From: Gammaproteobacteria bacterium
Lineage (GTDB): Bacteria > Pseudomonadota > Gammaproteobacteria > 21-64-14
Direction: 5' to 3'
NCBI GenBank assembly: GCA_027013145.1
Contig: JALUXX010000036.1
Coordinates: forward strand, 62,001-126,000
DNA: 64,000 nt
Position numbers and translations under genes: made by a program. Positions 18,056-44,318 of the stretch are shown here, in pieces. A model generated the notes under the pieces. It was not told where the DNA came from, did not search any database, and was given only the letters and a program-made list of their open reading frames with translations. Position 1 is the first letter of the stretch. Every line of letters begins with the position of its first letter.

Positions 18056-18224
18056 CCTGGGAGCCTGTCGGACTTAGGTGTTCGTAGCGAGGCGGCGGGA
18101 GGTCGAGGACAGTTTTCCGATCGTTTGAGGCGAATAGTGATCGCTATTTAACGAAAACGATCGGAAAAATGGGCCGATCTCCCACCGCCGCAGTAGAAAA
18201 GCCTAAGTCCGAGAGGCTCCTAGG
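18056..18224. repeat. 169-bp palindromic element, copy A (MITE-like)
   Basis: Terminal inverted repeats of 23 bp (21 matching) occupy 18056-18078 and 18202-18224. Inside lie GC-rich arms (GGCGGCGGGAG and its near complement) and a perfect 14-bp inverted repeat at 18113-18126 and 18155-18168 around TTTTCCGATCGTTT, with a further AATAG...CTATT core. The whole element can fold as one long hairpin. It carries no coding frame. A second copy at 43381-43548 is about 90% identical by eye. Its right end contains CTA, which is the folK stop codon. Confidence 0.85.
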
Positions 18225-18744
18225 CCCGCGGCGGGCCCGGCGCGGTCTCGGGCTCCGGACGCAGCGGCACCGGGCGCAGGCCGGTGCGGGCGGCGGCCCC
18301 GAATTCCTCCCACAGCTGCGCGAGGGTCTTCCCCGCGACCGGATGGCGCAGGGTGCCGGCGATCTCCGCCAGCGGCCCGAGCACGAAGGCGTAGCGCAGC
18401 AAGTCGGGGCGCGGCAGTTCCAGCCCCGGTTCGCGGATCACCAGATCGTCGTAGAGCACGAGGTCCAGATCGAGGCTGCGCGAGGCGTAGCGCGGGCCGG
18501 TCCGCACGCGCCCGTGGGCGTCCTCGATGGCGCGCAGCGCGGCGATGAGCGCCCGGGGAGTCTCGTCGGTGTCGAAGGCGGCCGCCAGGTTGTAGAACGG
18601 CGGACCCTCGAAGCCGACCGCGTCGGTCTCGTAGACGGTGCTCACGGCGAGCGCCCGATAGCGCCGGCCGAGCGCGGCCAGGGCCGAGCGCACGTTGCGC
18701 TCGGGCTCCACGTTGCTGCCGATGCTCACGTAGGCGCGGGGCAA
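18220..18744 (-). CDS. folK: 2-amino-4-hydroxy-6-hydroxymethyldihydropteridine pyrophosphokinase
   Basis: HPPK transfers pyrophosphate from ATP to the pterin in folate synthesis. The protein (about 174 residues) opens with AYVSIGSNVEPERN and contains RYASRSLDLDLVLYDD (the HPPK signature with metal-binding aspartates) and LELPRPDLLRYAFVLGPL. There is no ATG near the conserved start. A TTG at 18744 gives MPRAYVSIGSN and is the preferred start, 29 bp after the folB stop; the next ATG upstream would overlap folB. The last codons and TAG stop abut or lie within the palindromic element. Confidence 0.92.
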   Translation of the reverse strand: MPRAYVSIGSNVEPERNVRSALAALGRRYRALAVSTVYETDAVGFEGPPFYNLAAAFDTDETPRALIAALRAIEDAHGRVRTGPRYASRSLDLDLVLYDDLVIREPGLELPRPDLLRYAFVLGPLAEIAGTLRHPVAGKTLAQLWEEFGAAARTGLRPVPLRPEPETAPGPPRA

Positions 18745-18772
18745 GGTGCGGTGTCCGGCGGACGCGGGGCGG

Positions 18773-19129
18773 TCAGGGCGCCGTGCCGCGCTCGATGACG
18801 ACGCCGACGTCGCGCGCGCCGCGCACGGCACCCATCTTGTTCACGCTCAGGCGCAGCCACGGGACCTTGAACTCCGTGAGGACGACCTCGGCGGCGCGCT
18901 CGGCGAGGGTCTCGACGAGCCGGAAACGGCTCGCGCCGACGAACTCGATCAGCCGTTTGGCGACGGCCTTGTAGTTGAGGGTGTCCTCGATGGCGTCGCT
19001 GCGCGCCGCCGCGGCGATATCGGCGGCCATCTCCAGGTCCAGGCGCACGGTCTGGCGGATGCGCCGCTCCCACTCGTAGATCCCGATGACGGTGTCGATG
19101 CGCAGATCGCGCAGGTAGATGATATCCAT
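18773..19129 (-). CDS. folB: Dihydroneopterin aldolase
   Basis: A 118-residue enzyme that converts dihydroneopterin to the hydroxymethylpterin used by FolK, its downstream neighbour. Seen: MDIIYLRDLRIDTVIGIYEWERR, here split as the N-terminal MDIIYLRDL and VIGIYEWERR, then DTLNYKAVAKRL and LVETLAERAA, all typical of FolB. The same ORF could be FolX-like, but linkage to folK favours FolB. Divergent from plsY, with an 85-bp shared upstream region. Confidence 0.95.
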   Translation of the reverse strand: MDIIYLRDLRIDTVIGIYEWERRIRQTVRLDLEMAADIAAAARSDAIEDTLNYKAVAKRLIEFVGASRFRLVETLAERAAEVVLTEFKVPWLRLSVNKMGAVRGARDVGVVIERGTAP

Positions 19130-43380: not shown

Positions 43381-43548
43381 CTAGGGGCCTGTCGGACTTG
43401 GGTGTTCGTAGCGAGGCGGCGGGAGAGCGAGGACGGTTTTCCGATCGTTTGAGGCGAATAGTGATCGCTATTTACCGAGAACGATCGGAAAAATGGGCCG
43501 ATTTCCCGCCGCCGCAGTAGGACATGCCCAAGTCCGACGGGCTCCTAG
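43381..43548. repeat. 168-bp palindromic element, copy B (inside the his operon)
   Basis: Second copy of the element at 18056. The terminal inverted repeats are 43381-43402 and 43527-43548 (20 of 22 bases pair). The base change ACTTAGG to ACTTGGG in the left end is matched by CCTAAGT to CCCAAGT in the right end, a compensatory pair. The same internal TTTTCCGATCGTTT/AAACGATCGGAAAA-type palindrome is kept. Its right end supplies the hisF TAG stop. Since hisF-hisI are co-directional it would be transcribed, forming a long hairpin in the his mRNA. Confidence 0.85.
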
Positions 43549-44318
43549 AGCCGCACGGTCACCCCGTGCCGGGAGAGGTATTCCTTGGCCTGGGCGATAG
43601 TGTACTCGCCGTAGTGGAAGATACTGGCGGCGAGCACGGCGTCGGCCCCGCCCTCGCGGACCCCCGCCACGAGGTGGTCGAGGTCGCCCACCCCGCCGGA
43701 GGCGATCACGGGGATCGGGACGGCGTCGCTCACGGCCCGGGTGAGCGCCAGGTCGAAACCGGCGCGGGTGCCGTCGCGGTCCATGCTCGTGAGCAGGATC
43801 TCCCCGGCGCCGTAGTCGGCCATGCGCACCGCCCATTCGACCGCGTCCAGGCCGGTGGCGCGGCGCCCGCCGTGGGTGTAGACCTCCCAGCGCGGCGCCG
43901 CCTCCGTGCCTCCAGCGCGCTTGGCGTCCACGGCGACGACCAGGCACTGGGCGCCGAAACGTCGCGCCGCCGCGCGCACCAGTTCCGGATCGCGTACCGC
44001 GGCGGTGTTGATGGCGACCTTGTCCGCCCCGGCGTTGAGCATGCGCCGCACGTCGTCCACGCTGCGGATGCCGCCCCCCACGGTCAGGGGGATGAACACC
44101 TGGGAGGCGACCTGCTCGACCACGTGGACGATGGTGTCGCGTTCGTCGGAACTCGCGGTGATGTCGAGGAAGGTGATCTCGTCGGCGCCCTGCTCGTCGT
44201 AGCGCCGCGCCACCTCGACCGGATCTCCGGCGTCGCGGATCTCCACGAAACGCACGCCCTTGACCACGCGGCCGGCGTCGACGTCGAGGCAGGGGATGAT
44301 GCGTTTGGCGAGGCTCAT
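43545..44318 (-). CDS. hisF: Imidazole glycerol phosphate synthase cyclase subunit
   Basis: A 257-residue TIM-barrel that uses ammonia from HisH to make IGP and AICAR. Starts [20 protein letters not shown], with conserved [28 protein letters not shown] and the catalytic aspartate pair (about D11 and D130). Its TAG stop lies in the palindromic element. Upstream neighbour hisA ends 51 bp away. Confidence 0.98.

Follow-up and report, generated by a model that had tools for sequence, protein, structure and literature searches.

The stretch of DNA analysed here (the window) comprises 64,000 nucleotides of contig JALUXX010000036.1 from a Gammaproteobacteria bacterium (GCA_027013145.1). It contains two copies of a short palindromic element, in both of which the right CTAG tetramer supplies the TAG stop of the adjoining minus-strand gene, folK and hisF, respectively (Table 1). 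The initial annotation had placed the limits of the first copy at 18056–18224; alignment of 20 genomic copies bounded it better, with CTGG on the left, CTAG on the right and 18-bp repeats just inside. The nested inverted repeats described there were recovered, with outer arms (18056–18105/18175–18224) of 50 nt and 78% complementarity and inner arms (18110–18140/18141–18171) of 31 nt and 77% complementarity. The proposed single concentric hairpin was also reproduced, as the RNA fold of the plus strand spans the whole of 18057–18223 at −106.3 kcal/mol (z = −12.2, with none of 200 shuffles equally stable), compared with −87.3 kcal/mol for the minus strand. A terminal inverted repeat of 23 bp is present as claimed; most other copies have it without any mismatch, but this one carries two. 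What had been read as a perfect 14-bp palindrome is not self-palindromic; together with a partner arm located downstream, it makes up a separated 14-bp inverted repeat. Neither a promoter nor a terminator was detected within this copy or close to it.

Table 1. Features of the two element copies in the window (positions are those of the window)
Feature	Position	Strand	Remarks
Whole element, 167 bp	18057..18223	+	Plus is the strand with the conserved fold; covariance model R1 match G000:C36:80057-80223:+, E 6.6e-41
Left tetramer CTGG (degenerate CTAG)	18057..18060		Presumed half of a 4-bp target duplication, based on empty-site comparisons at other copies
Left terminal inverted repeat GAGCCTGTCGGACTTAGG	18061..18078	+	Agrees with the ends of ISAzo2-group IS1182 elements
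Interior	18079..18201	+	Covarying stems and conserved unpaired motifs CGTAGCGAG / GCAGTAGA; GAGGAC / TGGGCCG; TGAGGCGAATAG / CTATTTAACGA
Inner arm TTTTCCGATCGTTT	18113..18126	+	
Partner arm AAACGATCGGAAAA	18155..18168	+	
Right terminal inverted repeat GAGCCTCTCGGACTTAGG	18202..18219	-	One mismatch
Right CTAG tetramer	18220..18223		Minus-strand reading of 18220-18222 is the TAG stop of a folK-like ORF (18220-18831, -)
Second family copy	43381..43548	+	Less perfect and more diverged; CTAG at both ends; right CTAG is the TAG stop of hisF (43545-44318, -)

Copies in this and other genomes

The left terminal repeat occurs four times in the window at up to three mismatches, compared with 0.04 occurrences expected, these being the ends of both window copies. 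Within the whole genome, 22 distinct copies were detected with the covariance model, 20 of full size and two short (73 and 62 bp), and a similarity search with the 169-bp query returned about 20 full-size loci. The search for further copies which had been suggested thus showed the element to be multicopy. Sequence outside the CTAG tetramer is unrelated from copy to copy, so the copies are dispersed and are not duplicated regions. In being short, non-coding, dispersed and present in 22 copies, the element conforms to the general description of a MITE. A duplication of two loci in a single lineage, named beforehand as a finding that would speak against such an element, does not agree with these 22 copies or with matches in approximately a quarter of the sampled gammaproteobacterial genomes.

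The two short copies, near 2995–3070 of L049 (C4) and 3015–3080 of L050 (C47), are derivatives that have lost internal sequence (73 and 62 bp) and whose ends can still be recognised. Each is present as a single copy, and on C4 there is a further partial end immediately upstream of the derivative. Solo-end loci on C4, C47 and C60 had been considered as possible IS ends; this was rejected, as two are these shortened derivatives and the third is a degenerate end.

Beyond this genome, covariance-model matches were found in 58 of 229 sampled gammaproteobacterial genomes and in 55 of 299 genomes drawn from the phylum, many of the latter belonging to other classes. Full-length model matches were obtained in Thioalkalivibrio, Pseudomaricurvus, Thiodiazotropha and Massilia, and in MAGs of Zetaproteobacteria, Geobacteraceae and Nitrospirota, where single odd phyla are to be read with care since MAG contigs may be misbinned. 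Plasmid and phage collections searched with the element gave one weak plasmid match and no phage match. A separate short repeat family of about 110 bp, starting with GTGTACTGCGCCACTC, was also observed in dozens of copies in two genomes (G085 and G208), where it directly adjoins copies of the element (for example L269 and L270 in G208).

Conservation of the interior

Elements of many taxa align end to end although identity to the window copy drops to about 63% (a divergence of about 35%). Their size is close to constant: 55 of the 76 elements delimited by paired ends measure 167–169 bp, an estimate free of bias from the interior because sizes were taken from the ends alone. A set of 45 divergent elements was used for covariation analysis and gave a consensus fold of 59 base pairs, 44 of which show compensatory double changes. 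The covariation score was 0.450, compared with 0.165 for shuffled alignments and at most 0.114 with slid partners, and 92.8% of cells were paired. The modelled strand was the more stable one in 44 of the 45 elements, with both RNA and DNA parameters. When close copies were compared cluster by cluster, changes on one side of a pair had produced G-U 129 times and A-C 68 times, an excess to which a transcription-linked mutation bias could contribute. Covariation together with this strand asymmetry would fit a functional structured RNA.

Conservation is also seen outside the stems. Unpaired columns 29, 74, 77, 104, 106 and 144–147 rank with the most conserved positions of the interior (about 1.6–2.0 bits), although the mean over all unpaired columns (1.06 bits) is not significantly higher than that of the paired ones (0.94 bits, p = 0.13). 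In our reading, the conserved unpaired motifs GGAC/GGAC and TGAGG/AACGA resemble tandem G.A pairs.

Correction of quasi-palindromes by template switching is a known mutational process, and in a near palindrome such as this one it could keep imperfect arms palindromic and give the appearance of covariation in a neutral interior. This explanation is improbable and is weakened already by the data above, as such correction would erase mismatched motifs. Several unpaired columns show conservation as high as any in the interior, even if the average over all of them is not significantly raised. Uncompensated one-sided changes are moreover common among close copies, and a process that treats both strands alike should not give rise to a strand preference. 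Given the near-fixed length of approximately 168 bp, the covarying strand-specific hairpin and the internal-loop motifs kept across taxa, selection on the interior is very probable. MITEs are usually regarded as passive deletion derivatives whose middles are unconstrained. In having a conserved, covarying interior unlike that of the ISAzo2-group IS, the element lacks the trait of an interior that is derived from a parent IS or unconstrained, which is common among MITEs and not strictly defining.

Target site, terminal repeats and gene context

CTAG is present at both ends in 65 of about 103 elements, with nothing conserved beyond it. The tetramer is depleted in the window, with 9 occurrences against 81 expected, and three of the nine are element ends. 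Target-site duplications, which had been proposed as a check, were sought by joining the flanks of filled sites and searching for them in sister genomes, so that duplicated target and terminal repeat could be told apart, the species being roughly 75–85% identical and the alignments being read by eye. A single CTAG was found exactly at the empty-site junction in two filled/empty pairs (L247/L284 and L246/L309), and a single CTAG-like tetramer in five others: CCGG (L260/L283 and L248/L311), CTTG (L240/L312), CCAG (L251/L310) and TTAG (L249/L308). With one such tetramer in the empty site and two in the filled one, these seven pairs fit duplication of a 4-bp CTAG-like target. The closest pair (L271/L278, 90% identity) was not clean, since it showed no clean single tetramer and six bases were missing from the empty site; the insertion here has a TGA stop on one side and a terminator-like hairpin on the other. 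It should also be noted that several copies in one genome (L272–L276 of G123) are identical in their left flank, GGTGCAATATCCGGG, a pattern suggestive of a preferred site or of a larger composite repeat.

The search for a transposase with matching ends, which had also been suggested, succeeded in other genomes but not in this one. Public genomes were scanned for the 22-mer CTAGGAGCCTGTCGGACTTRGG, which gave at least 120 stretches; among viral contigs searched with the 22-mer, one contig matched. In one of the genomic stretches (L117) the inward partner of the 22-mer is located about 1.57 kb away, and the two enclose a 455-aa IS1182-family transposase (NF033551, E = 2.5e-108). Relatives at 57–62% identity (L192, L315 and L316), and plasmid-borne relatives including ISAzo2 (78% identical), have the same terminal repeat with CTAG outside. 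Eight elements of this ISAzo2 group, about 1.55–1.63 kb long and all in other genomes (L117, L192, L315, L316, L342, which holds ISAzo2 itself, L343, L344 and L345), share ends of the form CTAG[G/C]AG[C/T]C[T/C]GTCGG[A/G]C, with CTGA at one side of L117. One genome (G092) carries both the IS and copies of the MITE, with an unusual CTAGCAG end common to both. The same terminal repeats were also seen in elements of 239–308 bp (L106:1396–1702, L147:7420–7694 and L092:2624–2862); model matches are weak in the first two, whose interiors seem different, and the third is a variant with insertions. These are perhaps further passengers of the same helper.

Searches of this genome with PF01609, with the L117 transposase and by repeat pattern detected no ISAzo2-type transposase or autonomous partner, and most genomes carrying the element are likewise without such a transposase. 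Mobilisation is therefore deduced from the shared ends and not from co-occurrence, and we infer that the helper was transient in this genome or has since been lost. The 168 bp hold no DDE transposase ORF (NCBIfam NF033551), and with respect to the IS1182 family the element can be no more than a satellite. Nor is it the end remnants of one ordinary IS, the other outcome that would have counted against the first description: the match to ISAzo2-type IS1182 elements is confined to the terminal 18–22 bp or so, and what lies between is a structured, conserved sequence distinct from them.

Dispersal, 18-bp inverted repeats and CTAG-like tetramers, of which one is present in the empty site, are MITE-type features. 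The element is accordingly read, with a probability of roughly 0.83, as a non-autonomous, length-locked, structured MITE moved in trans by an ISAzo2-type transposase. Such a transposase, acting now or in the past, would very probably recognise the terminal repeats and place the element in a CTAG, duplicating these 4 bp, as the matching ends and empty sites strongly support.

Of 144 neighbouring gene 3′ ends, 49 stop at CTAG, compared with 18 ORFs running into the element in other frames and a chance expectation of approximately 1–2 (143 unique copies, element masked); these numbers are approximate, as gene calls were simple ORF choices which missed real genes such as hisF. Since the 4-bp CTAG would be duplicated, insertion into a stop-codon CTAG should recreate the TAG stop, and targeting of a rare tetramer that is often a stop codon would explain harmless insertions at gene ends. 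A bias towards the sense orientation (47 sense, 20 antisense, p = 0.001) was not robust, falling to 44 and 30 (p = 0.13) once the element was masked, and the claim was dropped. The orientation data do not decide between constraint at the RNA level and at the DNA level.

The covarying structure, the frequent position at gene ends and the lack of the IS in most host genomes might together recall a domesticated or selected host regulatory RNA, spread mainly by homologous or illegitimate recombination and carrying IS1182-like ends by chance. This is very unlikely, as the 18-bp ends and CTAG match at least eight IS1182 elements, and transposition is indicated by the CTAG specificity, by the empty sites and by positions that are dispersed and non-orthologous.

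For the mobile, structured MITE preferred here, a role for the fold either as RNA in a 3′ untranslated region or as a DNA-level part of transposition is what we infer. The interior may function at the RNA level, as a structured part of the abutting gene's 3′ untranslated region, protecting or processing the mRNA end and thereby making stop-codon insertion tolerable, a model to which we give slightly less than an even chance. As the main alternative, selection could operate on the DNA, with the hairpin (as a cruciform or single-stranded DNA) and the fixed length of approximately 168 bp aiding end pairing or recognition by the transposase and RNA being irrelevant. This is a possible explanation of lower probability, to which the constant length of a diverging interior, the same strand preference with DNA energy parameters, and the single-copy state of each shortened derivative in this genome lend weight, as does the use of inverted-repeat structures in transposition by IS1272 of the IS1182 family (PMC5678879). 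It is less easily reconciled with the ISAzo2-group elements of about 1.6 kb, which have the same ends without this interior, or with the single-contig genome G123, in which the copies listed are spread over both strands all round the chromosome with no sign of replication-strand preference, the origin and terminus not having been located.

It is more tentatively suggested that the interior could represent a new class of structured RNA of approximately 168 nt with tandem G.A-type loops, spreading among classes and phyla by means of IS1182 ends and providing an instant 3′ untranslated module at stop codons, or else a structure that an IS1182-type transposase needs for short elements. Whichever applies, the element departs from the usual MITE in keeping its length and fold while its sequence diverges, and the family is absent from Rfam. 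Two questions thereby become open to direct test: whether selected RNA modules can reach gene ends on board a mobile element, and whether short elements depend on a defined DNA structure for IS1182-type transposition.

Relation to known elements

The initial annotation had suspected a small mobile palindrome that belonged to no named family, a view which is partly supported. Against Rfam, the window stretch gave only two miRNA matches far below threshold and six further loci gave none. In the papers examined the terminal repeat was not found in print except inside one Geobacter primer, although an earlier listing among unnamed Geobacter repeats is possible. The primer is OmcE_fwd for omcE of Geobacter sulfurreducens, which begins with GAGCCTGTCGGACTTGG (PMC11077965), so a copy or an end of the family may adjoin omcE. 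Geobacter genome papers describe unnamed ‘multicopy nucleotide sequences’, some of them palindromic, and these repeat families could include the element.

At its ends the element resembles the IS1182-family insertion sequences of the ISAzo2 group (ISAzo2 of Aromatoleum aromaticum), which have a terminal repeat of CTAG[G/C]AG[C/T]CTGTCGG[A/G]CT with CTAG on both sides. The group differs in being about 1.6 kb long with a transposase, while the 168-bp element has no transposase gene and similarity between them ends after the terminal 18–22 bp or so. Within the same IS family, that of the supposed helper, DNA palindromes matter for the transposition of IS1272, which replaces a target hairpin and leaves no duplication (PMC5678879). 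IR-replacing transposition was considered for this family reason and rejected, as a 4-bp duplication accounts better for the empty sites.

In overall build the element resembles YPAL (RU-2) of Yersinia, which is likewise approximately 168 bp, palindromic, intergenic, multicopy and non-autonomous with a stable hairpin (PMC2759123; PMC2229807; PMC2267715). YPAL, however, has target duplications of 3–26 bp and internal repeats (PMC2759123; PMC2229807), in place of the 4-bp CTAG and terminal repeats found here, and homology was not detected, with no nhmmer match to the published RU-2 and at most 4.8 bits for the covariance model on an E. coli YPAL relative. The element had also been called shorter than typical MITEs, which is no distinction, since YPAL (approximately 168 bp) and ERIC (127 bp) fall in the same size class. 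ERIC, Correia/NEMIS and RUP are also small, non-coding, multicopy hairpin elements believed to depend on transposases supplied in trans. Their termini are TA, as are their duplications, and they occur in a narrower range of hosts (PMC2229807), whereas the element described here has CTAG, IS1182-type ends and a distribution over several classes and phyla.
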